Positions 849 through 57,885 of a stretch of 64,000 nt of DNA are shown here, in pieces. The notes under the pieces were generated by a model, which was given only the letters and a program-made list of their open reading frames with translations, ran no database searches and was not told the DNA's origin. The position numbers were made by a program, and so were the translations under genes. The first letter of the stretch is position 1. Every line of letters begins with the position of its first letter. This DNA comes from Citrus sinensis (lineage: Eukaryota; Streptophyta; Magnoliopsida; Sapindales; Rutaceae): positions 12,683,001 through 12,747,000 of the forward strand of contig NC_068563.1 in assembly GCF_022201045.2 (NCBI RefSeq). Reading direction: 5' to 3'.

Positions 849-1517
849 ATGGCAGCTACTCCAAATAGACAATTCAAGAACATTTGTGTGCTTTCTGGAT
901 TTACCTATGGCAAACATAAAGAGTTCGTTGAGGCAGCCATCGATCTTGGTCGAAGTATAGCAAAGAGAAAATTACACTTGGTGTATGGAGGAGGTAACCG
1001 AGGGTTATCAAAAATGGTCTCTGAAGCAGCTTTTGTCAGAGGAAGTCAAGTGTTAGGCATCATCCCAAGAGTCCTAAAACCATTGGGCAGTTCGTCTGAC
1101 TCATCAATTGGAGAAGAGTTAGTCGTCTCAGGTATGCAAGAAACAATAACTGAAATGCTTCATTATGCTGATGCTTTTATTTTCCTTCCAGGAGATCTTG
1201 CAACACTAGAGGCACTTATCACACTAGCATCTTGGGCCCATCTGCACATCCACCAGAAACCCATCGGTTTGTTAAATGTCAATAACTTTTATGATGACTT
1301 TATTGCATTTCTTAACCATGCAATAAAAAATTATTTCATTCCCTCTAATGCGAAAAAACTCTTTATTTGTGCTCACACTGCTAATGAGCTACTTGATCTG
1401 TTACAAGCTTATAGACTGGAGCCAGACCCCTGGACCTTTGTGTTGGAGCATCTAAATAATGATGGTAATAGTAGCCGCAGTAAGAAGTACAAATTAGATT
1501 TAACTCTCCGCTTGTAA
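849..1517 (+). CDS. LOG-like protein (cytokinin riboside 5'-monophosphate phosphoribohydrolase family) as retrotransposon cargo
   Basis: The ORF encodes 222 residues, the usual length of plant LOG proteins, without introns, although plant LOG genes have several. The ATG at 849 has A at -3 and G at +4 and places the LOG N-terminus correctly. Family features are a Rossmann-like start with KNICVLSGF (residues 10-18), the nucleotide-binding VYGGGNRGL (45-53), VLGIIP (68-73), DAFIFLPG (108-115) and KPIGLLNV (about 136-143). LOG enzymes remove ribose phosphate from cytokinin nucleotides using an Arg in a MHxRKxxM motif and a Glu in PGGxGTxxE. Here the first motif reads MQETITEM (96-103), with Arg and Lys lost, and the second PGDLATLEA (114-122), with the final Glu replaced by Ala. 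The fold is probably kept but the known chemistry probably is not. The ORF is open while its upstream neighbour is broken. It lies between pol and the 3' LTR, so it is element cargo. Confidence 0.85.
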   Translation: MAATPNRQFKNICVLSGFTYGKHKEFVEAAIDLGRSIAKRKLHLVYGGGNRGLSKMVSEAAFVRGSQVLGIIPRVLKPLGSSSDSSIGEELVVSGMQETITEMLHYADAFIFLPGDLATLEALITLASWAHLHIHQKPIGLLNVNNFYDDFIAFLNHAIKNYFIPSNAKKLFICAHTANELLDLLQAYRLEPDPWTFVLEHLNNDGNSSRSKKYKLDLTLRL

Positions 1518-3377
1518 ATATTTTCTTCTGTGTTACACCACCCAGGTAATGTCTTCTAAACTCTACTTCTTTCCTTTCAAACATTGAGGACAATGTTTCA
1601 TTCTGGTTGGGGGGAGGGAATAGTCGACAATTGTGGAATCTTGGTTAAGTTTTTACTGATTTTTTATTGTAGAAACTAATTGTTGCTAACTTTTTGTGTT
1701 GAAGATGGCTGAATATGAAGTGTAGTTACTCTAGAAACGAATCTTCATCGTTTGAAAAAAAAAACAAACAAAAAATTCAAAAAAAAAATTTAGACATTTT
1801 CTTTTTCTTTATTAAGTTTTGATGTTCATTTTTTTCTTTTTAATTTCTCCTTTATAAATATATTCAAATATTTGAGTCGAAGATGGCTGAATACGGAGTG
1901 TAGTGCCTCTAGAAACGCATCTTCTTAGTTAAAAAAAAAATTCTTTTTCTAATTAATTTTTTTACATCATTTTCACATTTCTGCATGCATATTTTCCTTT
2001 CATGTTTAGAATAGGTTGGGGGGTAGAATGTTGTTTAAAAAAAAATTGTGTTATTTGTTTTAACATTGGATGACATGATTAATTTCAAATTTTAGTATTT
2101 GTATTATCTTTGGTCTTAAGTGATATTACGCTATGTTTGCTGCTTTACATGTTGATGTCGGAGACAAATATGAGTTGCTTGAAGGAATGAACATGTCATA
2201 AATAAGTACCAAGTGAGTTTTTGAGCCTATCATTTTTCTTGGAGAGTAACCCTTTGCCCATTCTTTATACAGCTGAGCATTTTATTATTTTATATACGAT
2301 CTCTAGATTTCTTTTGAGTTAACCCTAAAAAAAAAATTGTAAAATAAAAAAAAAGAAAAAGAAAAAAAATGTGTGTTGCTACATTGGGAGGCCCATCTAA
2401 CTAGTAGATATGGATGATTATTTAGAGCCCTAAAAGACGATGGAAAGGCCATCTTTGATCCGTTTGAGCCTTTCTAGCCATCTCTTTTATTAAATATCCA
2501 TAGTTACCCCTTTTGAGCCTTTAAAAAAAAAAACCTTTTCTTTGTCAACTTATCATCTTGACCCACTCCGATTTGGTGTATTACCCGATGTCTTATAAGT
2601 TCCATCACCTATTTATGTTTGAGAAAATGTAAATAATTATTTTGTTCAGTGAAGTTAGGCCAAATAAAAGCAAAAAAAAAACAACAAAACAAAAGTTGTT
2701 TCAAAAGAATAAAAATAACAACAATAGGTGAAATACACATTGCAACTTCAAAAAAAAAAAAAATCTCTGCATTTTTCTCAAACATACACTTTGTTTTCCT
2801 TATTTCCCTTCTGTGTTAGCCATGTCCCTAGCCTACGTTACGTCCTAATAAAAGTCCTTCTTGATTTTAGGAAACTATAGTTTGAAGTAAAAGCTAGTTA
2901 TACGGGCTAAAAAGATGTAGTGGTGCATAATAATAAAAAAAAGAGATAAATAAAATGGGTTGATTAGCATTTTTGTTTGACTTGAGATCGTATTATTTCC
3001 AAGCTGAGGGCATCTTTCTTTCATCTTGGTGAGAGCATGTGATATCACTTCTTTATTATTTTCTCTCTCAAGTACCATTCATTGGAGTGACTATTTTTAT
3101 TGGGTTTAATTTCTTTGTGAGAGTGTCACTACTTCCAGTGAGGTTTTGGGGTTTGACATGTCATTCTTGAAAGTAGCTATGACAATCTACTAGGCTGATT
3201 CATGTGGATAGTTGATGTGGGTGTGATGTTGCTTTAGACTGGAGATAATGCTTATACTTTTATTTGATTGCTATCATTAGTCTGATTGAATAAACAAGAT
3301 TGTTAAAAAAAAAATTGTGTTTGAATTTTGTTTTCACTTTATTTGCTAGGGACTAGCAATAAGCTGGTTGGGGGGTG
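1518..3377 (+). other. 3' non-coding region of element A with three polypurine-tract-like motifs
   Basis: No convincing ORF is present. The stretch is AT-rich with many A-runs. The motif GGTTGGGGGG occurs at about 1607, 2014 and 3366; the last directly precedes the LTR and is the likely second-strand primer. The same stretch is found reversed in element C (37763-38497 and in each array unit), so it belongs to the family. Confidence 0.7.
1701..1925 (+). repeat. Duplicated 47-bp motif with self-complementary ends
   Basis: Two copies, at about 1701-1748 and 1879-1925, share the core GAAGATGGCTGAATA, then TGTAG and CTAGAAACG, and end in ATCTTC. The first bases (GAAGAT) pair with the last (ATCTTC), and in the second copy the arms extend to 7 bp. 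The reversed equivalent is visible in element C near 38440-38495. Confidence 0.6.
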
Positions 3378-3699
3378 TGTTGAGTGTTAGAAAATGTATA
3401 TTTATAAAGGAGAAAATTGTCATTTTACATTTTAAGTCTTACTAACAACCCTTACTTTTATGTATTTAAGGTTCTTGTAATTTAATTATGTGTGTTTTAT
3501 TTTAATTAAGTATTTTGTGTATTTTAGGGGCATTATAGTCATTTCACAATAAACGAGAGATCAAACGGCAAAACCGACATCACTTTTGAACTCAGGACGG
3601 TCGAAAACCTTAGGAGGAGCATAAAAGGAAAAATGGCATTGTTCACATGTACGGTACTGTCTACGTTACTGTTCACGACACTGTTCAATAGACGGATCG

Positions 3700-3975
3700 A
3701 TGACGTGGCATTGACCAATGATGTGGCATTGACTGATGAGGTGTCATGATCCTGTTAGTCTAAAATTCTTATAAACTGTTGATGGTGACGTGGCAGCATA
3801 TTAGTGGACCAAAACTTGCGCGTACGGTACATGCATTACACAGGATTATTTTAAACCAAACCGCGTTACTATTCAAAGCCGGGTCAAACTGCGTTACTGT
3901 TCAAAACCGGGTCAAACCGTGTTACTGTTCACCCGCGTGATCAAACCGCGTACTGTTGACTAATGACGTGGCGCA
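3700..3975 (+). promoter_or_regulatory. Cluster of TGACGTGGCA-type motifs in LTR U3
   Basis: In U3, copies of GACGTGGCA or GATGTGGCATTGAC recur at about 3703-3750, with further ACGTGG cores near 3790 and 3967, upstream of the TATA box. ACGT cores preceded by TG are the known binding sites of plant bZIP (TGA/ABF-type) factors. Whether they are used here is inference. Confidence 0.45.
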
Positions 3976-4030
3976 ATCTTGAGCATCTAAACTGTTTTTA
4001 ATCTGATGGTCATGATTTACTCCATGTATC

Positions 4031-4038
4031 TATAAAAA
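4031..4038 (+). promoter_or_regulatory. TATA box of element A LTR
   Basis: TATAAAAA is followed by a GC-rich patch and lies about 100 bp upstream of an AATAAA. The same arrangement holds in the D LTR (56806) and, reversed, in the array LTRs. Confidence 0.6.
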
Positions 4039-4132
4039 AAGGGCCTCTCCCCCATAATTTGATATCTCTGAATCCATTTTTTGGATCCATTTTCTGTAAT
4101 TCCTGCTCCATCTTGTATTTTCTATGTATTTT

Positions 4133-4138
4133 AATAAA
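4133..4138 (+). terminator. Polyadenylation signal AATAAA in the LTR
   Basis: AATAAA lies about 100 bp downstream of the TATA box, which fits the R region of the LTR. It is conserved in D at 56908-56913. Confidence 0.5.
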
Positions 4139-4289
4139 TTTTCATTTTGCCCCTAGTTCAATTATGAGTGGCTAATTTTCTTTCAAGTTTGGGTTGAAGG
4201 TGAAGTCTCAACATATGTCATGGGTTTTATTTGGTAAATTTATTTTCTCTTCCCCTCTAATTTTTGTGGATGTTTTGACCTCTCGTCGA

Positions 4290-4361
4290 CAAATAATACT
4301 AATCTTGTCTAGCACCGCCTTGGTTTCACCGGGCCCCTAGTACAAGATTATTATTATTTGG
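4290..4361 (+). other. Long stem-loop in LTR U5
   Basis: The arm at 4290-4312 is complementary to the arm at 4337-4361 over about 22 positions with one mismatch and one bulge, closing a GC-rich loop of about 24 nt. Equivalent structures occur in the D LTR (57050-57122), each array LTR (for example 22179-22250) and the solo LTR (about 41408-41480). Being downstream of the putative start site, it would lie in the 5' leader of genomic RNA. Confidence 0.65.
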
Positions 4362-4746
4362 CACGATAAGCCCTTAGCACCATATTGATTAGAGCGTGGT
4401 TCATGAGGTGTGGATTCCCCCATCATGATTTAATTGGCATTAATAAGGATTATTTAGCCCATGGTGCATGTTGATACGGATCCAGATACCCAAGTACGAC
4501 ATTTCAATAGAATTCTCTTCAATTTATTCTCGCCATTTCAATTCCAATTTTAGAATTTATTCTCGCCATTTTAATTTAAGTTTTAGCATATTCCAAATTA
4601 TTTCCACCATAAATCCAATCACCCATTTACAAAATTAATTCTACACACAATTAAAATCCACCTCCTCGTGGGATCGACACTCGTCATCATTAGTCTATAC
4701 TATAATAGATTCGTGCGCTTGCGAGTACATTAAATTTTGCACAACA

Positions 4747-6003: not shown

Positions 6004-7791
6004 ATGCGTAAAGACAGATCTGTTGTATTCCAATTTGATCCTAAAATTGAAAGGACTGTTAGGAGACTATGAAGAGAACAAAGAATTCAAAAACTAATTC
6101 AGGCATGGATAATTTGCAGGATGTGGGAAATTTGGACCCTCACGGGCCCTTACAACCAGTCAACATTCAAGAAGAGCATAATGAACATGCTGACCAAAGA
6201 CAGCCAGGCAACAAAAATATAATTTACATGACTGATGACAGGGCAGAGCTATAGAGATTTTGCTTTGTTAACTCCTCAAGTTGTACACCTTGGGATAATC
6301 AGACCTGAAGTGGAAGCCGCAAACTTTGAACTAAAGCTAGTAATGTTTCAAATGTTACAAACAGTGGGTCAATTCAATGGATTGCCAAATGACGATCCTC
6401 ATCTCCATCTTAAGTTGTTCTTGGAAGTGAGTGATATTTTTAAGATTGCTGGAGCAACCCAAGATGCTTTAAGACTGAGGCTTTTTCCTTACTCCTTAAG
6501 AGATCGAGCAAGAGCATGGTTAAATTCGTTACCATTTGATTTCATCACTACATGGAATGAGTTGGCTGATAAATTCTTAATGAAATATTTCCCACCGACA
6601 AAAAATACAAAATTGCGAAATGAGATTACTTATTTCCATCAACTTGAAGATGTGAGTTTGTATGAGGCTTGGGAAAGATTCAAAGAACTGCTCAGAAGGT
6701 GTCCTCATCTTGGCATTCCTTGTTGCATACAATTGGAAACTTTCTATAATAGGTTGAATCCTAGTACAAGATTGACGGTGGATGCTTCAGCAAATGGAGC
6801 TTTGTTATCCAAATCTTACACTGAAACTTATGAAATTTTGGAGAGAATTGCTAACAATAATTATTAGTGGCCATCAACCAGGCAACCAGTAACAAGAGGA
6901 GTAGTAGGGGTACATAACATAGATGAAATTACAGCTTTATCAGCACAAGTAACCTCATTGACTAACATGGTAAAAGACATGACATTTGCTCCATCAGTAG
7001 TAAAGCAAGTTGCTGAATTTTCTTGCGTATATTGTGGTGAAGAACATGACTTTGATAACTGTCCTGGAAATCCAGCACCAATAAACTATATGGGTAATTT
7101 CAACCGACTGCTTCAAAATAACCCATATTCAAATACTTACAACCCTGGATGGAAGCAACACCCAAATTTTTCATAGAGCAGCCATAACCGAAATGCTTCA
7201 GCATTGAATGGACAGAATAGGAACACTCAACCATCTGGTTTTCATCAGCAGAGTCAAGGGCAAAAACATATCAATCAAGATCCAATCACTTCACTGGAAG
7301 TTCTGATTAAGGAATACATTGCAAAGAATGAAGCAATTGTGCAGAGTCAAGTTGTATCCTTGAGGAACCTAAAGAACCAAATGGGACAACTTGCCACAGC
7401 AATGAGTAGCAGAACTCAAGGAAGCTTACCTAACAACACAGAAGATCCAAGAAGAGAGGGAAAAGAACACTGCAAAGTAATCAACCTAAGATCTGGAAAG
7501 AATATTGATATCCCTATTGATGTAACTAAAAAGGGGCTGGAACTTAATTCCTCACAAGAACCACCTCAAGATGAGAGCATGTTACAACCCAGCCAACCAG
7601 ACACTAATGATAAGGGCCAAGCTGAAGCAACTACGGAAGGAGATCAACCAATACATGCCGAGAAAGAAGTTGCAACACCAGTAGCCACAACCTACAACAA
7701 ACCAAACAAGCAGAGTTTGGCACCTCCTGAAGCTACCCAACAGTTTAGGCATCCACCTCCTTTCCCACAAAGATTTCAGAAGAAAAAATAA
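6004..7791 (+). pseudogene. gag of element B
   Basis: The capsid/nucleocapsid region begins at the ATG at 6004, like the gag of element E. The frame stops after 22 codons, resumes in another frame at about 6069-6254, and shifts again near 6235 into the long capsid frame. That frame has TAG at 6865 and 7174 and ends with TAA at 7789. The retrotransposon gag domain is recognisable in the segment with LRLFPYSLRDRARAWL, and a CCHC zinc knuckle (C-x2-C-x3-H-x4-C) lies at about 7024-7063. A proline- and glutamine-rich tail follows. It packages element RNA in the cytoplasm; this copy cannot make an intact product. Confidence 0.88.
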
Positions 7792-8719
7792 GACAAGCAG
7801 TTCAGCAAATTCTTAGAAGTGCTGAAGCAATTACACATTAACATACCTTTTGTGGAAGCTCTGGAGCAAATGCCTAATTATGTGAAATTTTTAAAAGACA
7901 TCTTGGCAAAAAAAGAGAAGGTTGGGAGAATTTGAAACTGTTGCTTTAACACAGAAAAGCAGTCATATGCTCCAAAATAAGATTCCTAAAAAGTTGAAGG
8001 ATCCAAGAAGCTTTACAATACTATGTTCCATTGGAACTAGGTACAATGGTAGATCATTTTGTGATTTGGGAGCCAGTATTAATCTGATGCCATTTTCTGC
8101 ATTTAAGCAGTTGGGAGTACGAGAATGCAAGCCAACAACAGTCACTCTGCAATTAGGTGACAGATCTCATGCATATCCTGAAGGAAAAATTGAGGATGTA
8201 CTGGTGAAGGTTGACAAATTCATTTTCACAGTAGACTTCATTATACTAGACTTTGAGGCTAATAAAGAGGTAGAAGACATTTCCTAGCAATTGGGAAAAC
8301 TCTGATAGATGTGCAGAAAGAAGAGCTCACCATGAGAGTGAATGATCAGCAAGTCACTTTTAATGTATTAGAGGCTATGAAGAACCCTGATGAGTTAGAA
8401 GATTGCCAATTCCTGAGTGTTGCGGATTTTGTTGTAGCAGACAGAATCGACAGATGCTGCAGTAATAAGATCAAAAAAGTCACCATCTTCGAAGGTTTTG
8501 AAGAAGAAGATGTTGCAGCAAACCAGATAGATTGGATGGAAGGACATAAATCAGATAGACATAAAAGAATTATTGAACATTTGAATCTTTCAGACAGGGA
8601 AGTAAAAACAACTTTATCATCTATTGATTCACCTCATAGTCTTGAATTAAAATTGTTACACACTCCTTGTAATCATTTCCTTTACTTTGGATGCAGGTCA
8701 AGAATAGAGTCTAGTAGAT
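7792..8719 (+). pseudogene. Protease and linker of element B
   Basis: The frame of gag continues past its stop to about 7918, shifts by one, and encodes an aspartic-protease-like domain with CDLGASINLMP at about 8061-8094, the Athila version of the D-T/S-G active site. Near 8279 the segment that should hold the second conserved strand (ILGRP in element D) is missing; a deletion of about 20 bp shifts the frame, and coding resumes in the ORF from 8311. A final shift near 8665-8720 leads into pol. The product would be an inactive protease. Confidence 0.82.
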
Positions 8720-11527
8720 ATGCTTGGGAAATACAAAACAGCAATTGGATGGACCATGGCAGACATCAAAGGGATAAGCCTATCAATATGCATGCATAAA
8801 ATTTTGTTAGAAGACTGCTACAGCAATTCAGTGGAGCAACAGAGAAGGTTAAACCCTATTATGAAAGAAGTGGTGAAGAAAGAAATCATCAAATGGTTGG
8901 ATACTGGAATCCTATATCCGATATCAGACAGTTCGTGGGTGAGCCCAGTCCAATGTGTTCCAAAGAAGGGAGGGATAACAGTGATAGCAAATGAGAAGGA
9001 TGAACTTATTCCTACAAGGACAGTGACTGGATGGAGAGTATGTATGGATTACAAGATGCTCAACAAAGCCACAAAGAAGGATCACTTCCCACTCCCATTC
9101 ATAGATCAGATGTTGGACAAACTTGCTGGAAAACAGTACTATTGTTTCCTAGATGGGTATTCAGGCTACAACCAAATTGCTATAACTCCAAAGGATCAAG
9201 AAAAGACTACAGTTACCTGTCCTTATGGAACCTTTGCCTTCAGAAGGATGCCCTTTGGTTTGTGCAATGCTCCAACAACTTTTCAGAGACGTATGATGTC
9301 TATTTTTTCTGATATGGTAGAGCAAACTTTAGAAGTCTTCATTGATGACTTCTTAGTTTTTGGAGAGACATATAATGATTGTTTACACAACTTAGAAGAA
9401 GTTCTTAAAAGATATGAGATGACTAACTTAGTGCTCAATTAGGAAAAATGTCATTTCATGGTGCAAGAAGGCATAGTGTTGGGTCATAAGATATCCAAGA
9501 ACGACATTGAGATAGACAAAGCCAAGATAGAAGTAATAGATAAACTGCCACCTCCAACTTCAATTAAGGATATTAAGAGTTTTTTAGGTCATGCTGGATT
9601 TTATAGAAGATTCATTAAGGATTTTTCCAAGATAGCTAAACCATTATGCTCATTGCTGGAACATGACAAGCCTTTTCACTTTGATAAAGACTGTCTTCAA
9701 GCCTTTGGAGAATTAAAGAAAGCTTTGATCACTGCATCGGTGGTTATATCACCAGATTGAACTCTACCATTTGAACAGATGTGTGATGCCAGTGACCATT
9801 CTGTTGGAGCAATATTAGGGTAGAGAAAGGATAAGATTTTTCACTTCATATACTATGCAAGCAAAAGTCTTACTCAAACTCAAATTAATTACACCACTAC
9901 ACAGAAAGAGTTGCTAGCAGTAATATTTACTTTTGCTAAATTCAAAGCTTACTTGGCGGGTACTAAAGTGATCGTATACACAGACCATGCAGCCATCAAG
10001 TACTTAATTTCAAAGAAGGATGCCAAACCAAGATTAATCAGATGGATTTTATTGCTTCAGGAGTTTGATCTGGAAATTAAAAATAGAAAGGGGATTGAGA
10101 ATCAAGTAGCAGACCACTTGTCGAGGCTGGAAGCAGACATAAGTACATTGACAAGAAATGATATCACTGAAACTTTTCCTGATGAACAGTTGTTAGTAGT
10201 ACAACAAGCACAGATGCTGCAGCAATCAGGATCTCCATGGTATGCAGATTTTGCTAACTACTTAGTAAGTGGGTTGCTACCACTTGAGTTGAAGTTTCAG
10301 GAGAAAAAGAAATTTCTTCATGATGTTAGAAGCTATCAGTGGGATGACCCATATTTATATAAGTTATGCTCGAATCAAGTAATATGAAGATGTGCTTCAG
10401 AGGGAAAGATTCCCCACATACTGGAGTCATGCCATGCTGCAGCATATGGAGGACATTTTGGTGGTCACAGAACAGCTGCTAAAGTTCTGTAATCAGGTTA
10501 TTACTGGCCTTCTATTTTTAAAGATGCTTATGACTTTTTTAAATGTCGTGACAGGTGTCAAAGGATAGGGAACATAACTAAAAGACATGAAATGCCTTTG
10601 ACAAACATTCTGGAAGTGGAAGTTTTTTATGTATGGGGAATAGATTTCATGGGACCTTTTCCACTATCCTTTGGGAACTTATATATACTTGTTGCTGTGG
10701 ATTATGTCTCCAAGTGGGTAGAAGCTGCAGCATTAGCCACCAATGATGCTAAAATAGTGGTGGCCTTTCTTTAGAAAAGTATTTTTTCCAGGTTTGGCAC
10801 TCCTAGAGCAATTATAAGTGATTAGGGTACTCATTTTTGCAACAAAGTATTTGTTGTAGCTATGGTAAAATATGGAGTTAGGCATAAAGTAGCAACAACA
10901 TATCACCCACAATTTAATGGTCAGGCAGAAGTGTCCAATAGAGAAATGAAGAAAATCTTAGAAAAAATGGTGAACCCATCATGGAAGGATTGGTCCTTGC
11001 GGTTACATGACTCCCTATAGGCCTATAGAACAACATACAAAACATCACTTGGCATGTCTCCTTACTGAATTATTTATGGGAAGGCTTGTCACCTGCCACT
11101 TGAGCTAGAGCAAAAAGCACATTGGGCACTGAAGCAATTAAATTGGGATTTACATGCTGCAGTAGAGCAAAAGAAGCTTCAACTCTGTGAGCTTGATGAA
11201 TTATGGTTGTTCTCATATGAAAATGCAAGAATCTATAAAGAGACGACAAAACATTGGCACGACAAGCATATCCAAAACAGGGAATTCAACCCTGGTCAAC
11301 AAGTGCTACTCCATAATACAAGACTAAGATTATTTTCAGGAAAACTAAAATCTCGATGGTCTGGACCTTTTAAGCTGCTTAGAATTTATCCTCATGGGGT
11401 TGTTGATCTTCTAGAAGAACAAACAGGTCAAGAATTTAAAGTTAATGGACACAGGGTTAAGCATTACATACACCTAGGGGCAGATTGTTCAAATGAGGTC
11501 TTACTCCTTAAAGAACCAAGCTATTGA
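8720..11527 (+). pseudogene. pol (reverse transcriptase, RNase H, integrase) of element B
   Basis: A single frame holds RT (conserved GWRVCMDYKMLN near 9030; active-site FIDDF near 9340), RNase H (CDAS near 9786; YTDHAA near 9978), and integrase (zinc-finger remnant near 10450-10560; first catalytic Asp in WGIDFMGPF near 10640; second near 10818; third acidic residue near 10960). It is interrupted by at least nine stops, at about 9440, 9758, 9821, 10385, 10490, 10772, 10822, 11018 and 11066. Compared with element D, each can be explained by a C-to-T or G-to-A change at a Trp, Gln or Arg codon. No frameshift is needed across the stretch. It is close in sequence to pol of D at 60102-63269. Confidence 0.92.
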
Positions 11528-20956: not shown

Positions 20957-21824
20957 ATGCGCAAGTACAAACCTATTGAGTTTAAATTTGATCTAAAGAT
21001 TGAAAGAACTGCAAGGAGATTAAGAAGAGAGCACAAAAATTCAAAAGCTGCTATAGCAATGGATGAGTTAAAAGATATGGAAAACTTGAACCCACTTGGA
21101 GAAATACAACCAGTCAATGGTCGAGAAGATCAGAATGAACAAAATGATCAAGGACAACCAGGGAACAACATCATATGCATGGCAGACGATAGAGATAGAG
21201 CCATTAGAGACTATACCATGTTGACTCCTCAAGTTATGCATTCGGGAATTGTTAGACTTGAAGTGCAAGCTGCTAATTTTGAACTCAAACCAGTGATATT
21301 TCAGATGTTGCAGACATTTGGGCAATTTAATGGGTTGCTTTCAGAAGATCCTCATCTTCACCTCAAACTGTTCTTGGAGGTAAATGATGCCTTTAAAATT
21401 GCTGGAGCATCACATGATGCATTAAGACTCATAATTTTCCCGTATTCCTTGAGAGATCGGGCATGAGCATGGTTGAACTCTTTACCACCAAAATCCATCA
21501 CAATGTGGAAGGATTTGGCTAAAAAATTCTTGATGAAGTACTTTCCACCAACCAAGAATGCGAAATTGAGGAATGAAATAACATCTTTCCATCAACTTGA
21601 AGACGAAAGTTTGTATAATGTATGGGAAATATTTAAAGACTTACTCAGAAGATATCTTCATCATGATATTCCTTATTGCATACAAATGGAAACTTTCTAC
21701 AATGGGCTATATCCAAGCACTAGATTGATGGTGGATGCTTCAGCAAACAGAGCCTTATTGTCTAAATCCTACAATGAAGCTCATGAAATTTTGGAAAGAA
21801 TTGCTAACAACAATTATCAATGGG
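20957..21824 (+). pseudogene. gag of element E, N-terminal half, one stop, interrupted
   Basis: The ATG at 20957 starts the same N-terminus as gag of B. The frame is open except for one TGA at 21464-21466, where related copies have Arg in RDRARAW, a CGA-to-TGA change. The capsid domain continues to NNNYQW, where element C is inserted. The last 299 bp (from 21526) are the piece repeated in the tandem array. Confidence 0.88.
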
Positions 21825-23844
21825 TGTTGTGCAAATTTTAATGAACTCGCAAGTGCACGAATCTATTGTAGAATAGATCAATGGTGACGAGTGTTGATCC
21901 CACGAGGAGGTGGATTTTAATTATGTGTAGAATTAATTTTCTAAGTGGGTGGTTGGATTTGTGGTGAAAGTAACTTAGATTATCCTAAAATTTGAATAAA
22001 AATGGCGGGAATAAATTGAAGAGAAAACTATTAAAATGAATTGCTTGCGTATTTGGATCTGCATCAACATGCACCATGGGCTAAATATTCCTTATTAATG
22101 TCAATTAAATCATGAGGGGGGTTTTCCACTCCTCATGAACCACACTCTAATCAATATGGTGCTAAGGGGTTATTGTGCCAAATAATAATAATCTTGTACT
22201 AGGGAGCCAGTTAAACCAGTGCCATATCTAGACAAGATTATTACTATTTGTAGAGGAAAAGTCAAAACATCCATAAAAATTAGAGGGGAAGAGAAAGTAA
22301 ATTTACCAAATAAAGCCCATGGCACATGTTGAGACTTCACCTTCAACCCAAGCTTGAAAGAAAATTAGCTACTAATAATTAAACTAGGGGTAAAATAAAA
22401 ATTTATTAAAATACGTAGAAAATACAAGATGGAGAAGGAATTACAGAAAATTGAACTCAAAAATGAATTCAGGGATGCCAAATTAGGGGGGGAGCCCCCT
22501 TTTTATAGATACACTGAGTAAATCATGGCCATCGGATTAAAAACATTTTGGACGCTTAGGCTTTCACCACGTCATCGGTCAATAGTACGCGGTTTGAATA
22601 GTGACGCAGTTTGGTTGTAAATAATCCCGTGTATATGCATTTACCGTACGCACTATTTTTGGTCCACTAACATGCTGCCACATCATTGATCAACAGTACA
22701 TAAAAATTTTAGTCTAATAGAATCGTGATACCTCATCAGTCAATGCCACATCATCGGTCAATGCCACATCATTGTTCCATATATGTGAACAGTAACATGG
22801 ACAATACCGTACATGTGAATAGTACCGTATATGTGAATAATGCCATTTTTCCTTTTATGCTCCTCCTAAGGTTTTCAACTGTTCTGAGTTCAAAAGTGAT
22901 GTCCGTTTTACTGTATGATCTCTCGTTCATTGTAAAATGACCATGATGCCCCTAAAATACATAAAATACTTAATTATAATACAACACACATAATTAAATC
23001 ACAAGAGGCTTAAATACATAAAAGTAAGGGTGTTAGTAAGACTTGAAATGTAAAATGATGATTTTCTCCTTTATAAATATAAACTTTCTAACACTCAACA
23101 CACTCCCCAACCAGCTTATTGCTAGTCCCTGGCAATTAAAGTGAAAACAAAATTCAAACGCAAAATGATTTTTTTTAAAACAATAGTGTTTATTCAATCA
23201 GACTAATGACAACAATCAAATAAAAGTATAAGTAATATCTCTAGTTTAAAGAAATATCACTCCCACATCAATCATCCACATGCATCAGTCCAGCAGACTT
23301 TGTCATAACTATAGTAATCAAGCCACTTTCAAGAATGACATGTCAAACCCCAAAATTTCACTAGAAATAGTGACCCTCTTACAAAGAAGTTAAACCCAAT
23401 AAAAAATAGTCACTCTAATGAATGGTAAATTGAGAGAAGATAATAAAAAAATGATATCACACACTCTCACCAAGATGAAAGGAATATGCCCAACTCTTAA
23501 AAATAACACGATTTGAAGTCAAACAAAATGCTAGTCAACCCAATGTATTCATTTTTTTTTTTTACTTTTTTTATGCATCACTACATCTTTTTAGCCCATA
23601 TAATTAGCTTCTACTTCAGGCTATAAATCCCCAAAATCAAGAAGGACTTTTATTATGACGTAACGTAGGCTAAGGACATGGCTAACAAAGGATAGGAGAT
23701 AAGGAAAACAAAGTATATGTTTGAGAAAAAGTAGAGATTTTTTAGAAATTACAAGGTGCATTTCACTTATTTATTATTGTTCATTTTTTTCCTTTTTTAT
23801 GAAACAACTATTTTTTTTTTGTTGGGCATAACTTCACTGAACAA
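21526..23844. repeat. Array unit 1 (LTR 21825-23100, minus)
   Basis: This unit contains the original insertion point of element C in gag. It differs from all others at 21719, 21784 and 22053. The LTR starts TGTTGTGCAAATTTTA and ends ACACTCAACA on the plus strand. ATGGG precedes it as a possible target-duplication half. Confidence 0.93.
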
Positions 23845-26163
23845 ATTCTTGATGAAGTACTTTCCACCAACCAAGAATGCGAAATTGAGGAATGAAATAA
23901 CATCTTTCCATCAACTTGAAGACGAAAGTTTGTATAATGTATGGGAAATATTTAAAGACTTACTCAGAAGATATCTTCATCATGATATTCCTTATTGCAT
24001 ACAAATGGAAACTTTCTACAATGGGCTATATCCAAGCGCTAGATTGATGGTGGATGCTTCAGCAAACAGAGCCTTATTGTCTAAATCCTACAATGAAGCT
24101 CACGAAATTTTGGAAAGAATTGCTAACAACAATTATCAATGGGTGTTGTGCAAATTTTAATGAACTCGCAAGTGCACGAATCTATTGTAGAATAGATCAA
24201 TGGTGACGAGTGTTGATCCCACGAGGAGGTGGATTTTAATTATGTGTAGAATTAATTTTCTAAGTGGGTGGTTGGATTTGTGGTGAAAGTAACTTAGATT
24301 ATCCTAAAATTTGAATAAAAATGGCGGGAATAAATTGAAGAGAAAACTATTAAAATGAATTGCTTGCGTATCTGGATCTGCATCAACATGCACCATGGGC
24401 TAAATATTCCTTATTAATGTCAATTAAATCATGAGGGGGGTTTTCCACTCCTCATGAACCACACTCTAATCAATATGGTGCTAAGGGGTTATTGTGCCAA
24501 ATAATAATAATCTTGTACTAGGGAGCCAGTTAAACCAGTGCCATATCTAGACAAGATTATTACTATTTGTAGAGGAAAAGTCAAAACATCCATAAAAATT
24601 AGAGGGGAAGAGAAAGTAAATTTACCAAATAAAGCCCATGGCACATGTTGAGACTTCACCTTCAACCCAAGCTTGAAAGAAAATTAGCTACTAATAATTA
24701 AACTAGGGGTAAAATAAAAATTTATTAAAATACGTAGAAAATACAAGATGGAGAAGGAATTACAGAAAATTGAACTCAAAAATGAATTCAGGGATGCCAA
24801 ATTAGGGGGGGAGCCCCCTTTTTATAGATACACTGAGTAAATCATGGCCATCGGATTAAAAACATTTTGGACGCTTAGGCTTTCACCACGTCATCGGTCA
24901 ATAGTACGCGGTTTGAATAGTGACGCAGTTTGGTTGTAAATAATCCCGTGTATATGCATTTACCGTACGCACTATTTTTGGTCCACTAACATGCTGCCAC
25001 ATCATTGATCAACAGTACATAAAAATTTTAGTCTAATAGAATCGTGATACCTCATCAGTCAATGCCACATCATCGGTCAATGCCACATCATTGTTCCATA
25101 TATGTGAACAGTAACATGGACAATACCGTACATGTGAATAGTACCGTATATGTGAATAATGCCATTTTTCCTTTTATGCTCCTCCTAAGGTTTTCAACTG
25201 TTCTGAGTTCAAAAGTGATGTCCGTTTTACTGTATGATCTCTCGTTCATTGTAAAATGACCATGATGCCCCTAAAATACATAAAATACTTAATTATAATA
25301 CAACACACATAATTAAATCACAAGAGGCTTAAATACATAAAAGTAAGGGTGTTAGTAAGACTTGAAATGTAAAATGATGATTTTCTCCTTTATAAATATA
25401 AACTTTCTAACACTCAACACACTCCCCAACCAGCTTATTGCTAGTCCCTGGCAATTAAAGTGAAAACAAAATTCAAACGCAAAATGATTTTTTTTAAAAC
25501 AATAGTGTTTATTCAATCAGACTAATGACAACAATCAAATAAAAGTATAAGTAATATCTCTAGTTTAAAGAAATATCACTCCCACATCAATCATCCACAT
25601 GCATCAGTCCAGCAGACTTTGTCATAACTATAGTAATCAAGCCACTTTCAAGAATGACATGTCAAACCCCAAAATTTCACTAGAAATAGTGACCCTCTTA
25701 CAAAGAAGTTAAACCCAATAAAAAATAGTCACTCTAATGAATGGTAAATTGAGAGAAGATAATAAAAAAATGATATCACACACTCTCACCAAGATGAAAG
25801 GAATATGCCCAACTCTTAAAAATAACACGATTTGAAGTCAAACAAAATGCTAGTCAACCCAATGTATTCATTTTTTTTTTTTACTTTTTTTATGCATCAC
25901 TACATCTTTTTAGCCCATATAATTAGCTTCTACTTCAGGCTATAAATCCCCAAAATCAAGAAGGACTTTTATTATGACGTAACGTAGGCTAAGGACATGG
26001 CTAACAAAGGATAGGAGATAAGGAAAACAAAGTATATGTTTGAGAAAAAGTAGAGATTTTTTAGAAATTACAAGGTGCATTTCACTTATTTATTATTGTT
26101 CATTTTTTTCCTTTTTTATGAAACAACTATTTTTTTTTTGTTGGGCATAACTTCACTGAACAA
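23845..26163. repeat. Array unit 2 (LTR 24144-25419, minus)
   Basis: Same structure as unit 1. It begins at the chimeric junction ACAAATTCTTGATG, where gag is fused to the reversed 3' non-coding region. Confidence 0.93.
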
Positions 26164-28485
26164 ATTCTTGATGAAGTACTTTCCACCAACCAAGAATGCG
26201 AAATTGAGGAATGAAATAACATCTTTCCATCAACTTGAAGACGAAAGTTTGTATAATGTATGGGAAATATTTAAAGACTTACTCAGAAGATATCTTCATC
26301 ATGATATTCCTTATTGCATACAAATGGAAACTTTCTACAATGGGCTATATCCAAGCGCTAGATTGATGGTGGATGCTTCAGCAAACAGAGCCTTATTGTC
26401 TAAATCCTACAATGAAGCTCACGAAATTTTGGAAAGAATTGCTAACAACAATTATCAATGGGTGTTGTGCAAATTTTAATGAACTCGCAAGTGCACGAAT
26501 CTATTGTAGAATAGATCAATGGTGACGAGTGTTGATCCCACGAGGAGGTGGATTTTAATTATGTGTAGAATTAATTTTCTAAGTGGGTGGTTGGATTTGT
26601 GGTGAAAGTAACTTAGATTATCCTAAAATTTGAATAAAAATGGCGGGAATAAATTGAAGAGAAAACTATTAAAATGAATTGCTTGCGTATCTGGATCTGC
26701 ATCAACATGCACCATGGGCTAAATATTCCTTATTAATGTCAATTAAATCATGAGGGGGGTTTTCCACTCCTCATGAACCACACTCTAATCAATATGGTGC
26801 TAAGGGGTTATTGTGCCAAATAATAATAATCTTGTACTAGGGAGCCAGTTAAACCAGTGCCATATCTAGACAAGATTATTACTATTTGTAGAGGAAAAGT
26901 CAAAACATCCATAAAAATTAGAGGGGAAGAGAAAGTAAATTTACCAAATAAAGCCCATGGCACATGTTGAGACTTCACCTTCAACCCAAGCTTGAAAGAA
27001 AATTAGCTACTAATAATTAAACTAGGGGTAAAATAAAAATTTATTAAAATACGTAGAAAATACAAGATGGAGAAGGAATTACAGAAAATTGAACTCAAAA
27101 ATGAATTCAGGGATGCCAAATTAGGGGGGGAGCCCCCTTTTTATAGATACACTGAGTAAATCATGGCCATCGGATTAAAAACATTTTGGACGCTTAGGCT
27201 TTCACCACGTCATCGGTCAATAGTACGCGGTTTGAATAGTGACGCAGTTTGGTTGTAAATAATCCCGTGTATATGCATTTACCGTACGCACTATTTTTGG
27301 TCCACTAACATGCTGCCACATCATTGATCAACAGTACATAAAAATTTTAGTCTAATAGAATCGTGATACCTCATCAGTCAATGCCACATCATCGGTCAAT
27401 GCCACATCATTGTTCCATATATGTGAACAGTAACATGGACAATACCGTACATGTGAATAGTACCGTATATGTGAATAATGCCATTTTTCCTTTTATGCTC
27501 CTCCTAAGGTTTTCAACTGTTCTGAGTTCAAAAGTGATGTCCGTTTTACTGTATGATCTCTCGTTCATTGTAAAATGACCATGATGCCCCTAAAATACAT
27601 AAAATACTTAATTATAATACAACACACATAATTAAATCACAAGAGGCTTAAATACATAAAAGTAAGGGTGTTAGTAAGACTTGAAATGTAAAATGATGAT
27701 TTTCTCCTTTATAAATATAAACTTTCTAACACTCAACACACTCCCCAACCAGCTTATTGCTAGTCCCTGGCAATTAAAGTGAAAACAAAATTCAAACGCA
27801 AAATGATTTTTTTTAAAACAATAGTGTTTATTCAATCAGACTAATGACAACAATCAAATAAAAGTATAAGTAATATCTCTAGTTTAAAGAAATATCACTC
27901 CCACATCAATCATCCACATGCATCAGTCCAGCAGACTTTGTCATAACTATAGTAATCAAGCCACTTTCAAGAATGACATGTCAAACCCCAAAATTTCACT
28001 AGAAATAGTGACCCTCTTACAAAGAAGTTAAACCCAATAAAAAATAGTCACTCTAATGAATGGTAAATTGAGAGAAGATAATAAAAAAATGATATCACAC
28101 ACTCTCACCAAGATGAAAGGAATATGCCCAACTCTTAAAAATAACACGATTTGAAGTCAAACAAAATGCTAGTCAACCCAATGTATTCATTTTTTTTTTT
28201 TTACTTTTTTTATGCATCACTACATCTTTTTAGCCCATATAATTAGCTTCTACTTCAGGCTATAAATCCCCAAAATCAAGAAGGACTTTTATTATGACGT
28301 AACGTAGGCTAAGGACATGGCTAACAAAGGATAGGAGATAAGGAAAACAAAGTATATGTTTGAGAAAAAGTAGAGATTTTTTTGAAATTACAAGGTGCAT
28401 TTCACTTATTTATTATTGTTCATTTTTTTCCTTTTTTATGAAACAACTATTTTTTTTTTTTGTTGGGCATAACTTCACTGAACAA
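26164..28485. repeat. Array unit 3 (LTR 26463-27738, minus)
   Basis: Longer by 3 bp because of two longer T-runs. It has a private A-to-T change near 28383. Confidence 0.93.
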
Positions 28486-30805
28486 ATTCTTGATGAAGTA
28501 CTTTCCACCAACCAAGAATGCGAAATTGAGGAATGAAATAACATCTTTCCATCAACTTGAAGACGAAAGTTTGTATAATGTATGGGAAATATTTAAAGAC
28601 TTACTCAGAAGATATCTTCATCATGATATTCCTTATTGCATACAAATGGAAACTTTCTACAATGGGCTATATCCAAGCGCTAGATTGATGGTGGATGCTT
28701 CAGCAAACAGAGCCTTATTGTCTAAATCCTACAATGAAGCTCACGAAATTTTGGAAAGAATTGCTAACAACAATTATCAATGGGTGTTGTGCAAATTTTA
28801 ATGAACTCGCAAGTGCACGAATCTATTGTAGAATAGATCAATGGTGACGAGTGTTGATCCCACGAGGAGGTGGATTTTAATTATGTGTAGAATTAATTTT
28901 CTAAGTGGGTGGTTGGATTTGTGGTGAAAGTAACTTAGATTATCCTAAAATTTGAATAAAAATGGCGGGAATAAATTGAAGAGAAAACTATTAAAATGAA
29001 TTGCTTGCGTATCTGGATCTGCATCAACATGCACCATGGGCTAAATATTCCTTATTAATGTCAATTAAATCATGAGGGGGGTTTTCCACTCCTCATGAAC
29101 CACACTCTAATCAATATGGTGCTAAGGGGTTATTGTGCCAAATAATAATAATCTTGTACTAGGGAGCCAGTTAAACCAGTGCCATATCTAGACAAGATTA
29201 TTACTATTTGTAGAGGAAAAGTCAAAACATCCATAAAAATTAGAGGGGAAGAGAAAGTAAATTTACCAAATAAAGCCCATGGCACATGTTGAGACTTCAC
29301 CTTCAACCCAAGCTTGAAAGAAAATTAGCTACTAATAATTAAACTAGGGGTAAAATAAAAATTTATTAAAATACGTAGAAAATACAAGATGGAGAAGGAA
29401 TTACAGAAAATTGAACTCAAAAATGAATTCAGGGATGCCAAATTAGGGGGGGAGCCCCCTTTTTATAGATACACTGAGTAAATCATGGCCATCGGATTAA
29501 AAACATTTTGGACGCTTAGGCTTTCACCACGTCATCGGTCAATAGTACGCGGTTTGAATAGTGACGCAGTTTGGTTGTAAATAATCCCGTGTATATGCAT
29601 TTACCGTACGCACTATTTTTGGTCCACTAACATGCTGCCACATCATTGATCAACAGTACATAAAAATTTTAGTCTAATAGAATCGTGATACCTCATCAGT
29701 CAATGCCACATCATCGGTCAATGCCACATCATTGTTCCATATATGTGAACAGTAACATGGACAATACCGTACATGTGAATAGTACCGTATATGTGAATAA
29801 TGCCATTTTTCCTTTTATGCTCCTCCTAAGGTTTTCAACTGTTCTGAGTTCAAAAGTGATGTCCGTTTTACTGTATGATCTCTCGTTCATTGTAAAATGA
29901 CCATGATGCCCCTAAAATACATAAAATACTTAATTATAATACAACACACATAATTAAATCACAAGAGGCTTAAATACATAAAAGTAAGGGTGTTAGTAAG
30001 ACTTGAAATGTAAAATGATGATTTTCTCCTTTATAAATATAAACTTTCTAACACTCAACACACTCCCCAACCAGCTTATTGCTAGTCCCTGGCAATTAAA
30101 GTGAAAACAAAATTCAAACGCAAAATGATTTTTTTTAAAACAATAGTGTTTATTCAATCAGACTAATGACAACAATCAAATAAAAGTATAAGTAATATCT
30201 CTAGTTTAAAGAAATATCACTCCCACATCAATCATCCACATGCATCAGTCCAGCAGACTTTGTCATAACTATAGTAATCAAGCCACTTTCAAGAATGACA
30301 TGTCAAACCCCAAAATTTCACTAGAAATAGTGACCCTCTTACAAAGAAGTTAAACCCAATAAAAAATAGTCACTCTAATGAATGGTAAATTGAGAGAAGA
30401 TAATAAAAAAATGATATCACACACTCTCACCAAGATGAAAGGAATATGCCCAACTCTTAAAAATAACACGATTTGAAGTCAAACAAAATGCTAGTCAACC
30501 CAATGTATTCATTTTTTTTTTTTTACTTTTTTTATGCATCACTACATCTTTTTAGCCCATATAATTAGCTTCTACTTCAGGCTATAAATCCCCAAAATCA
30601 AGAAGGACTTTTATTATGACGTAACGTAGGCTAAGGACATGGCTAACAAAGGATAGGAGATAAGGAAAACAAAGTATATGTTTGAGAAAAAGTAGAGATT
30701 TTTTAGAAATTACAAGGTGCATTTCACTTATTTATTATTGTTCATTTTTTTCCTTTTTTATGAAACAACTATTTTTTTTTTGTTGGGCATAACTTCACTG
30801 AACAA
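28486..30805. repeat. Array unit 4 (LTR 28785-30060, minus)
   Basis: Same structure; one extra T in a T-run near 30515. No private substitution noticed. Confidence 0.93.
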
Positions 30806-33124
30806 ATTCTTGATGAAGTACTTTCCACCAACCAAGAATGGGAAATTGAGGAATGAAATAACATCTTTCCATCAACTTGAAGACGAAAGTTTGTATAATG
30901 TATGGGAAATATTTAAAGACTTACTCAGAAGATATCTTCATCATGATATTCCTTATTGCATACAAATGGAAACTTTCTACAATGGGCTATATCCAAGCGC
31001 TAGATTGATGGTGGATGCTTCAGCAAACAGAGCCTTATTGTCTAAATCCTACAATGAAGCTCACGAAATTTTGGAAAGAATTGCTAACAACAATTATCAA
31101 TGGGTGTTGTGCAAATTTTAATGAACTCGCAAGTGCACGAATCTATTGTAGAATAGATCAATGGTGACGAGTGTTGATCCCACGAGGAGGTGGATTTTAA
31201 TTATGTGTAGAATTAATTTTCTAAGTGGGTGGTTGGATTTGTGGTGAAAGTAACTTAGATTATCCTAAAATTTGAATAAAAATGGCGGGAATAAATTGAA
31301 GAGAAAACTATTAAAATGAATTGCTTGCGTATCTGGATCTGCATCAACATGCACCATGGGCTAAATATTCCTTATTAATGTCAATTAAATCATGAGGGGG
31401 GTTTTCCACTCCTCATGAACCACACTCTAATCAATATGGTGCTAAGGGGTTATTGTGCCAAATAATAATAATCTTGTACTAGGGAGCCAGTTAAACCAGT
31501 GCCATATCTAGACAAGATTATTACTATTTGTAGAGGAAAAGTCAAAACATCCATAAAAATTAGAGGGGAAGAGAAAGTAAATTTACCAAATAAAGCCCAT
31601 GGCACATGTTGAGACTTCACCTTCAACCCAAGCTTGAAAGAAAATTAGCTACTAATAATTAAACTAGGGGTAAAATAAAAATTTATTAAAATACGTAGAA
31701 AATACAAGATGGAGAAGGAATTACAGAAAATTGAACTCAAAAATGAATTCAGGGATGCCAAATTAGGGGGGGAGCCCCCTTTTTATAGATACACTGAGTA
31801 AATCATGGCCATCGGATTAAAAACATTTTGGACGCTTAGGCTTTCACCACGTCATCGGTCAATAGTACGCGGTTTGAATAGTGACGCAGTTTGGTTGTAA
31901 ATAATCCCGTGTATATGCATTTACCGTACGCACTATTTTTGGTCCACTAACATGCTGCCACATCATTGATCAACAGTACATAAAAATTTTAGTCTAATAG
32001 AATCGTGATACCTCATCAGTCAATGCCACATCATCGGTCAATGCCACATCATTGTTCCATATATGTGAACAGTAACATGGACAATACCGTACATGTGAAT
32101 AGTACCGTATATGTGAATAATGCCATTTTTCCTTTTATGCTCCTCCTAAGGTTTTCAACTGTTCTGAGTTCAAAAGTGATGTCCGTTTTACTGTATGATC
32201 TCTCGTTCATTGTAAAATGACCATGATGCCCCTAAAATACATAAAATACTTAATTATAATACAACACACATAATTAAATCACAAGAGGCTTAAATACATA
32301 AAAGTAAGGGTGTTAGTAAGACTTGAAATGTAAAATGATGATTTTCTCCTTTATAAATATAAACTTTCTAACACTCAACACACTCCCCAACCAGCTTATT
32401 GCTAGTCCCTGGCAATTAAAGTGAAAACAAAATTCAAACGCAAAATGATTTTTTTTAAAACAATAGTGTTTATTCAATCAGACTAATGACAACAATCAAA
32501 TAAAAGTATAAGTAATATCTCTAGTTTAAAGAAATATCACTCCCACATCAATCATCCACATGCATCAGTCCAGCAGACTTTGTCATAACTATAGTAATCA
32601 AGCCACTTTCAAGAATGACATGTCAAACCCCAAAATTTCACTAGAAATAGTGACCCTCTTACAAAGAAGTTAAACCCAATAAAAAATAGTCACTCTAATG
32701 AATGGTAAATTGAGAGAAGATAATAAAAAAATGATATCACACACTCTCACCAAGATGAAAGGAATATGCCCAACTCTTAAAAATAACACGATTTGAAGTC
32801 AAACAAAATGCTAGTCAACCCAATGTATTCATTTTTTTTTTTTACTTTTTTTATGCATCACTACATCTTTTTAGCCCATATAATTAGCTTCTACTTCAGG
32901 CTATAAATCCCCAAAATCAAGAAGGACTTTTATTATGACGTAACGCAGGCTAAGGACATGGCTAACAAAGGATAGGAGATAAGGAAAACAAAGTATATGT
33001 TTGAGAAAAAGTAGAGATTTTTTAGAAATTACAAGGTGCATTTCACTTATTTATTATTGTTCATTTTTTTCCTTTTTTATGAAACAACTATTTTTTTTTT
33101 GTTGGGCATAACTTCACTGAACAA
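30806..33124. repeat. Array unit 5 (LTR 31105-32380, minus)
   Basis: Shares a C-to-G change in the gag fragment (30841) and a T-to-C change (32946) with unit 6 only. Confidence 0.93.
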
Positions 33125-35443
33125 ATTCTTGATGAAGTACTTTCCACCAACCAAGAATGGGAAATTGAGGAATGAAATAACATCTTTCCATCAACTTGAA
33201 GACGAAAGTTTGTATAATGTATGGGAAATATTTAAAGACTTACTCAGAAGATATCTTCATCATGATATTCCTTATTGCATACAAATGGAAACTTTCTACA
33301 ATGGGCTATATCCAAGCGCTAGATTGATGGTGGATGCTTCAGCAAACAGAGCCTTATTGTCTAAATCCTACAATGAAGCTCACGAAATTTTGGAAAGAAT
33401 TGCTAACAACAATTATCAATGGGTGTTGTGCAAATTTTAATGAACTCGCAAGTGCACGAATCTATTGTAGAATAGATCAATGGTGACGAGTGTTGATCCC
33501 ACGAGGAGGTGGATTTTAATTATGTGTAGAATTAATTTTCTAAGTGGGTGGTTGGATTTGTGGTGAAAGTAACTTAGATTATCCTAAAATTTGAATAAAA
33601 ATGGCGGGAATAAATTGAAGAGAAAACTATTAAAATGAATTGCTTGCGTATCTGGATCTGCATCAACATGCACCATGGGCTAAATATTCCTTATTAATGT
33701 CAATTAAATCATGAGGGGGGTTTTCCACTCCTCATGAACCACACTCTAATCAATATGGTGCTAAGGGGTTATTGTGCCAAATAATAATAATCTTGTACTA
33801 GGGAGCCAGTTAAACCAGTGCCATATCTAGACAAGATTATTACTATTTGTAGAGGAAAAGTCAAAACATCCATAAAAATTAGAGGGGAAGAGAAAGTAAA
33901 TTTACCAAATAAAGCCCATGGCACATGTTGAGACCTCACCTTCAACCCAAGCTTGAAAGAAAATTAGCTACTAATAATTAAACTAGGGGTAAAATAAAAA
34001 TTTATTAAAATACGTAGAAAATACAAGATGGAGAAGGAATTACAGAAAATTGAACTCAAAAATGAATTCAGGGATGCCAAATTAGGGGGGGAGCCCCCTT
34101 TTTATAGATACACTGAGTAAATCATGGCCATCGGATTAAAAACATTTTGGACGCTTAGGCTTTCACCACGTCATCGGTCAATAGTACGCGGTTTGAATAG
34201 TGACGCAGTTTGGTTGTAAATAATCCCGTGTATATGCATTTACCGTACGCACTATTTTTGGTCCACTAACATGCTGCCACATCATTGATCAACAGTACAT
34301 AAAAATTTTAGTCTAATAGAATCGTGATACCTCATCAGTCAATGCCACATCATCGGTCAATGCCACATCATTGTTCCATATATGTGAACAGTAACATGGA
34401 CAATACCGTACATGTGAATAGTACCGTATATGTGAATAATGCCATTTTTCCTTTTATGCTCCTCCTAAGGTTTTCAACTGTTCTGAGTTCAAAAGTGATG
34501 TCCGTTTTACTGTATGATCTCTCGTTCATTGTAAAATGACCATGATGCCCCTAAAATACATAAAATACTTAATTATAATACAACACACATAATTAAATCA
34601 CAAGAGGCTTAAATACATAAAAGTAAGGGTGTTAGTAAGACTTGAAATGTAAAATGATGATTTTCTCCTTTATAAATATAAACTTTCTAACACTCAACAC
34701 ACTCCCCAACCAGCTTATTGCTAGTCCCTGGCAATTAAAGTGAAAACAAAATTCAAACGCAAAATGATTTTTTTTAAAACAATAGTGTTTATTCAATCAG
34801 ACTAATGACAACAATCAAATAAAAGTATAAGTAATATCTCTAGTTTAAAGAAATATCACTCCCACATCAATCATCCACATGCATCAGTCCAGCAGACTTT
34901 GTCATAACTATAGTAATCAAGCCACTTTCAAGAATGACATGTCAAACCCCAAAATTTCACTAGAAATAGTGACCCTCTTACAAAGAAGTTAAACCCAATA
35001 AAAAATAGTCACTCTAATGAATGGTAAATTGAGAGAAGATAATAAAAAAATGATATCACACACTCTCACCAAGATGAAAGGAATATGCCCAACTCTTAAA
35101 AATAACACGATTTGAAGTCAAACAAAATGCTAGTCAACCCAATGTATTCATTTTTTTTTTTTACTTTTTTTATGCATCACTACATCTTTTTAGCCCATAT
35201 AATTAGCTTCTACTTCAGGCTATAAATCCCCAAAATCAAGAAGGACTTTTATTATGACGTAACGCAGGCTAAGGACATGGCTAACAAAGGATAGGAGATA
35301 AGGAAAACAAAGTATATGTTTGAGAAAAAGTAGAGATTTTTTAGAAATTACAAGGTGCATTTCACTTATTTATTATTGTTCATTTTTTTCCTTTTTTATG
35401 AAACAACTATTTTTTTTTTGTTGGGCATAACTTCACTGAACAA
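33125..35443. repeat. Array unit 6 (LTR 33424-34699, minus)
   Basis: Carries the unit-5 variants (33160, 35265) and a T-to-C change (33935) shared only with unit 7. Confidence 0.93.
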
Positions 35444-57531: not shown

Positions 57532-57885
57532 GGTAATTTTAATTCATAGAATTAATTTTTGTGAATAATTTCTTTTAATTGTTTTCTTGTAATTTTTTTT
57601 ATTAAAAAGAAAAAGAAAAAAAAGTGAATCTACATTTGAAGGTTAGTATTTCTTTTCTTTTTCTCTTCTTTAAAATTTTGTAATTTAATTTTCAATTTAT
57701 TTTTCTTTGTAATTTTTTGTTTATTTTATTAATTTAATTTTTAGTTAATTTATTTTACGTATTTGTTTTTGTGTATTTTTATAGAAAGGTTGTAATAGCG
57801 CAATAAGGTTAGTATCGTAATTTCTCACTCTTCTTTATTTTTATTTGTTTTGTTCCCATCTTTATTTTTATTTTATTTGTTTTGC
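57532..57885 (+). other. 5' leader of element D
   Basis: A 354-bp T- and A-rich leader between primer site and gag start, without an ORF of note. Confidence 0.6.

Follow-up and report, generated by a model that had tools for sequence, protein, structure and literature searches.

The window, i.e., the whole stretch of 64,000 nucleotides of Citrus sinensis DNA analysed here (G000:C8:12683001-12747000), opens inside an LTR element of about 12.4 kb, element A, whose 5' LTR lies outside the window (G000:C8:12675367-12676702) and whose 3' LTR occupies positions 3377-4746 (+). Ahead of the 3' LTR, two ORFs are found: the 3' part of an ORF resembling viral nucleic-acid-binding proteins (NABP-like; 1-507, +), whose start lies upstream of the window, and an ORF of 222 amino acids encoding a LOG-family protein (retro-LOG; 849-1517, +), with zero internal stops in the ORF reading. 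The original prediction of an intact LOG-family ORF carried as cargo on the sense strand of an LTR element was therefore borne out; its placing of the ORF before the 3' LTR was right in that the ORF lies inside element A, but the two do not abut, 1,859 bases without a listed ORF of at least 80 amino acids lying between them. In the sequence reading, the polypurine-tract-like GGTTGGGGGGT precedes the 3' LTR (3366-3376, +), and a PBS-like TGGCGCC stands directly 3' of the 5' LTR.

The two LTRs are 96.9% identical, with 42 differences (32 of them transitions) over 1,335 aligned bases and a two-parameter distance of about 0.032. Using a substitution rate of 4-5e-9, doubled for LTRs to 8e-9 to 1e-8 per site and year (PMC7145672), simple arithmetic gives element A an age of 1.6-2.0 million years. 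As to its lineage, a second (archaeal) RNase H marks Tat (PMC6317226). L012, a fuller copy, has the order gag, PR-RT-RH-INT, a 185-aa ORF and LOG, and its pol holds one RNase H region according to Pfam, the second (archaeal) one being absent. The LTRs, the gypsy order of gag and PR-RT-RH-INT and the single RNase H point to a multi-copy Ty3/gypsy element of the Athila type; the type of its PBS presumably bears on the Athila question too.

Other retroelements surround element A. A second, broken Athila-like element adjoins it (6235-11527), with gag, RT and integrase-side ORFs and an RT stretch of 394 bases that is 72% like L012. An array of seven tandem units, each about 2,319 bases long and for the most part 99-100% identical to one another, spans positions 21521-37768. 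The units contain LTR-like sequence with about 84% likeness to L012 8778-9901, along with a block that resembles the gag region at 6568-6867 (80%); the array is composed of retroelement pieces and expanded recently. Finally, element D (57848-64000, +) comprises gag-pol and the start of a NABP ORF (63772 on), with 95% likeness to L012. The LOG copy of this element is situated past the window end, where its presence had been foreseen, at L011:650-1314 (equivalent to window positions 64650-65314), in two overlapping pieces, and its frame is thus broken.

Retro-LOG belongs to the LOG family by homology, since it matches PF03641 with 92.7 bits (curated cut-off 27) and TIGR00730 with 122.7 bits (curated cut-off 96.35); its top solved relative is 2a33 (E 2.6e-43). 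With the cytokinin phosphoribohydrolase equivalog model it reaches 84.1 bits, far short of the 300 required. The plant LOGs AtLOG3 (2a33) and AtLOG8 (1ydh) share a homologous core with retro-LOG at about 40% identity; their Glu122, Gly116, Lys100 and His97 are however replaced in retro-LOG, whose C-terminus also differs from that of the host gene read. The predicted structures, with a mean pLDDT of 35.6 for the LOG model and 60.3 for the NABP model, were of too poor a quality for a fold search.

The search of the host assembly (299.7 Mb) revealed at least 150 copies of retro-LOG, that is, 150 scored out of 2,109 first-look candidates, with 93-100% identity, 147 of which are stop-free; being the best-scoring ones, they over-represent young copies. 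There is also a second subfamily, whose protein is 69-77% identical and which is represented by 30 fetched copies (9 of them intact), and a third, represented by one copy read (L061). The subfamily-1 set consists of 25 rows from 22 places (L003, L012 and L051 are one place, as are L004 and L013) and was compiled without L001, the window's own place, and without L011 and L057, whose frames are broken. All 15 subfamily-1 places selected by their LOG have the NABP ORF next to it; in subfamily 2, 25 of the 30 places have it, either whole or fragmented. When the best-scoring 10 loci were picked by NABP, LOG was present in 9, in a single frame in 8. The remaining locus, L054, has been rearranged into a chimera: after NABP the sequence returns to gag and continues into LTR sequence, LOG having been lost. 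It looks like the product of template switching. Among the best 120 of 614 and the best 120 of 556 protein matches listed, all the named ones are from Citrus, those in the first of the two lists being from Citrus x changshan-huyou.

Many copies being young and near-identical, the open frames among them alone prove little. Between subfamilies, the dN/dS of LOG is 0.180 when the 25 rows are compared with the 9 intact copies and 0.186 when the comparison takes in the full set of 30 subfamily-2 copies, in both cases at a dS of about 0.8; a bootstrap over codons, in which one copy was compared with the intact ones, spans 0.108-0.241, and the out-of-frame controls gave 0.59 in the +1 frame (hence not 1) and 1.76 in the +2 frame. 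Eight copies chosen by NABP, and not by LOG, yielded 0.19 for LOG, and the pN/pS values of nine copies chosen by LOG were 0.13 for gag, 0.14 for pol, 0.22 for LOG and 0.57 for NABP. Within the protein, the core has a dN/dS of 0.15 and a fast-evolving linker (residues 191-213; 1419-1487, +) one of 0.59 between subfamilies. Retro-LOG is kept by purifying selection as a protein, as had been anticipated. One might still suppose that a captured cDNA has been passively amplified with the element under no selection, all the more so as open frames in young, near-identical copies are weak proof against it; yet a dN/dS of 0.18-0.19 at such a dS and the disparity between linker and core render this extremely improbable, barring a distortion of the ratio by the choice of copies, and a passive, single capture was accordingly rejected. 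The intact subfamily-2 copies, compared with each other, gave 0.50 for LOG and 0.97 for NABP, as would be the case for old copies undergoing decay; the selection signal belongs to the lineage, not to each copy. Other copies do carry the ORF and the dN/dS between subfamilies is far from 1, so that on both these points, either of which could have overturned it, the original prediction stood.

Whether retro-LOG may still be an enzyme depends on its pocket. In CgLOG, the proposed catalytic residues are Arg99 and Glu122, the phosphate is contacted by Gly116, Ala117, Gly118 and Thr119 and the adenine by Met96, Lys100 and Glu121, and the substitution with Ala of AMP-binding or catalytic residues almost abolished activity, S19A excepted (PMC4979012). 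The residue numbers of retro-LOG and CgLOG coincide by motif alignment. In the window copy, the canonical MHxRKxxM reads MQETITEM (1134-1157, +) and PGGxGTxxE reads PGDLATLEA (1188-1214, +), with Asp116, Ala118 and Ala122. Both had been correctly read, but the claim that both motifs are altered was rejected for the family as a whole: MQETITEM is private to the window copy, which has Thr99, whereas Arg99 is present in 24 of the 25 subfamily-1 rows, and Asp116 and the lack of Glu122 are family-wide changes. Asp116 occurs in 25/25 subfamily-1 and 30/30 subfamily-2 rows, and Glu122 in none of either (0/25 and 0/30). Residue 122 is Ala in all 25 subfamily-1 rows and in 25 of the 30 subfamily-2 rows, the remaining ones having Val, Ser, Thr or Pro, and the 9 intact subfamily-2 copies have Ala (5), Thr (2), Ser (1) or Val (1); since this residue varies but is never Glu, the loss of Glu122 is general, while Ala itself is not strictly kept. 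The same change, Glu to Ala at the residue equivalent to 122, distinguishes PDB 5zbk from 5zbj, the former reportedly being the AMP-bound form. Retro-LOG has further replaced His97 with Gln, Lys100 with Ile and Gly116 with Asp, and has Ala118 and mostly Ala122; it retains Met96, Arg99, Thr119, Glu121 and Trp129. Across 28 aligned rows, two of which are the same protein, Gln97, Ile100, Gly115, Asp116, Leu117, Ala118, Thr119 and Glu121 show an invariance of 90% or more.

The retro-LOG family, therefore, does not combine the catalytic Arg99 and Glu122 with the PGGxGTxxE motif that would identify a cytokinin phosphoribohydrolase. With the proposed catalytic Glu122 missing, retro-LOG is predicted to be a pseudoenzyme, and we infer that its phosphoribohydrolase activity has been lost, even though some activity may remain in view of the kept Arg99, Thr119, Glu121 and Trp129. 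The nucleotide binding without cleavage and the interference with cytokinin signalling proposed in the original prediction are putative. According to a different reading, retro-LOG would be an N-glycosidase with altered specificity, freeing cytokinin or another base and promoting the division of the cells in which the element replicates. The overall LOG homology, the five retained residues and the strong purifying selection on the core would suit such an enzyme; nevertheless, the absence of Glu122 from all 55 rows, the changes at Gly116, Lys100 and His97 and a score far under the cut-off of the cytokinin-enzyme model make us consider it decidedly unlikely.

The NABP-like neighbour was said to have two stops. 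The one at 292-294 is indeed premature; the one at 505-507 is the ordinary stop, common to the relatives read. Neither the viral type of this gene nor the C-terminal tail of retro-LOG figured in the original prediction. Members of this ORF family (the "cassette ORF") also occur in Xanthoceras, Acer and Populus, where relatives (P0137, P0154 and P0172) are annotated as hypothetical proteins, and the listed matches of the viral-type NABP gene span more taxa than those of LOG. The Carla_C4 or Viral_NABP cut-off was passed by 8 of 8 NABP relatives, hand-picked from the best 120 listed, the best one with 33.8 bits against 23; the L012 NABP itself lies under both Pfam cut-offs. Three Citrus gene models (P0055, P0074 and P0080) join the NABP and LOG ORFs, and P0055 and P0080 pass a Pfam cut-off, while P0074 fails. 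As 320 bases separate NABP and LOG in L012, these models are probably annotation joins, spliced fusions being possible as well. The cysteine-rich NABPs of carlaviruses, mandariviruses and vitiviruses (PF01623 and PF05515) have in common with the neighbour gene a basic stretch and a Cys finger, but the latter is longer (182-185 aa) and encoded by an LTR element, and for it suppressor and nuclear roles are putative; silencing suppression has been described for viral relatives, one of which is also reported to act as a transcription factor (PMC12172455). The NABP gene was probably transferred from a virus to the element. Among the viral contigs searched, no relative of the LOG or the NABP protein was found.

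The NABP dN/dS between subfamilies is 0.21 (bootstrap 0.11-0.32), with 0.58 in the basic/C4 part and 0.18 in the C-terminal part, synonymous sites being saturated in the N-terminal part. The approximately 100 bases directly 3' of the NABP stop (L012:6489-6590 and equivalents) are 85-91% identical between subfamilies, and identity then falls to 52-82%. Readthrough of the stop codon was considered, as the 22 codons past it look conserved, and was rejected, because their pN/pS of 1.12 speaks for conservation at the DNA level, probably a DNA- or RNA-level signal rather than a coding one.

Retro-LOG ends with LDLTLRL (1494-1514, +), an EAR-like sequence found in 25/25 subfamily-1 rows, in 8 of the 9 intact subfamily-2 copies and in L061; LxLxLxL ends 65 of the 77 collected proteins of at least 215 aa. 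Between subfamilies, none of the 7 tail positions changed its majority residue, against 13 of the 23 linker positions (p 0.010) and 31 of the 190 core positions; conservation of the tail is thus close to that of the core and differs from that of the linker. At the nucleotide level, the first five tail codons are identical between the most common forms of the subfamilies, so that a DNA-level constraint is possible. The host LOG gene read ends with NTSLKTEIAR and does not have LDLTLRL, which conforms to LxLxL, one of the two patterns (the other being DLNxxP) by which an EAR motif is recognized. The tail is comparable to that of SUPERMAN. The effector HaRxL21 likewise has an LxLxL near its C-terminus, LMLTL, that binds TPL; ten other LxLxL effectors failed to do so, the motif alone being insufficient (PMC7446885). 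HaRxL21 is, however, a secreted effector whose TPL binding has been demonstrated (PMC7446885), whereas that of retro-LOG is putative.

Tail and neighbour also bear on two further explanations. Retro-LOG might pair with dimeric host LOGs and lower their activity in a dominant-negative manner, or it might soak up nucleotides, given that LOG active sites form at the dimer (PMC4979012) and that, by sequence, the fold is kept and the pocket changed. An identity of only about 40% to plant LOGs makes mixed dimers uncertain, though, and neither the tail nor the neighbour gene would be explained, for which reasons we regard this as quite improbable. The ORF might instead serve the element's own particle or replication, in a structural or nucleotide-handling capacity and with no action on the host; its being kept alongside gag and pol in the copies read would fit, but it has no similarity to a structural protein and the tail and the neighbour point, albeit weakly, elsewhere, which leaves a role of this kind very unlikely.

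Concerning the origin of the cargo, the original prediction rightly described retro-LOG as intronless. Indeed, the single host LOG gene read, located by DNA pattern, has interruptions inside the PGG codons and following KP, as judged from GT...AG signals in its DNA, and retro-LOG has none at these sites; the 150 rows of the host LOG protein search were taken in bulk as element copies. In the phylogenetic tree, six retro-LOGs cluster together with 100/100 support, and the stem leading to them measures 1.29 changes per site; the tree does not resolve from which LOG this clade branches. The capture of a host LOG cDNA, followed by a long period of fast change, would be the simplest reading. The idea that no such cargo had been described has to be abandoned, as a YgdH/LOG domain is given for Gypsy consensuses of C. 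sinensis and C. clementina, matching a 2011 report, in section 12 of PMC9289625, an article that also mentions P. trichocarpa. This cargo is of the same kind and very likely of the same family as ours, and the account of the Citrus elements in that part of the article has no analysis of active site, selection, tail or neighbour gene. In orchids, a Gypsy lineage has likewise captured and fixed an enzyme domain, in the form of an AlkB-type RNA demethylase ORF, but that enzyme is active in vitro (PMC9289625), whereas retro-LOG is predicted to have lost activity. Our literature search found no report of a viral-type neighbour, of the general loss of Glu122, of the tail or of selection on the LOG cargo. 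LOGL4-like extra ORFs were reportedly noticed in two Athila-like elements by Steinbauerova et al. in 2011.

On the whole, we favour, with a probability of roughly 0.55, the reading that this LOG cargo of a gypsy (Athila-type) element is selected, lacks the proposed catalytic Glu, is a predicted pseudoenzyme and is likely accessory and host-manipulating rather than cytokinin-making. According to this model, a host LOG cDNA would have been captured by the element and undergone a long period of fast change, and the phosphoribohydrolase activity would have been lost; together with the viral-type nucleic-acid-binding protein, the LOG pseudoenzyme would constitute a two-gene accessory module turned to the manipulation of the host. 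The EAR-like tail might recruit TOPLESS-type corepressors, and the NABP-like protein might bind nucleic acid and dampen silencing like its viral relatives, these two steps being the least secure. A more far-reaching version, tentative and in our opinion rather unlikely, is that a carlavirus-type zinc-finger protein and a dead LOG scaffold, whose EAR tail would recruit TOPLESS against defence genes, act as a two-protein kit for taking over the host. If this were true, a transposon would be fighting its host with the tools of RNA viruses and pathogen effectors.

These data have a consequence for annotation. Many Citrus proteins of the retro-LOG family, among the matches listed, bear the database name "cytokinin riboside 5'-monophosphate phosphoribohydrolase", which in these cases probably tags transposon genes that do not encode the cytokinin enzyme. 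More generally, extra ORFs of unknown role are common in plant LTR elements. For retro-LOG, selection has been measured, the ancestral enzyme can be named and its catalytic change specified, the short motif is of a type whose class of partners is known, and the neighbour is of viral type; with selection, catalytic change and motif at hand, what extra ORFs may do for the element becomes directly assayable.
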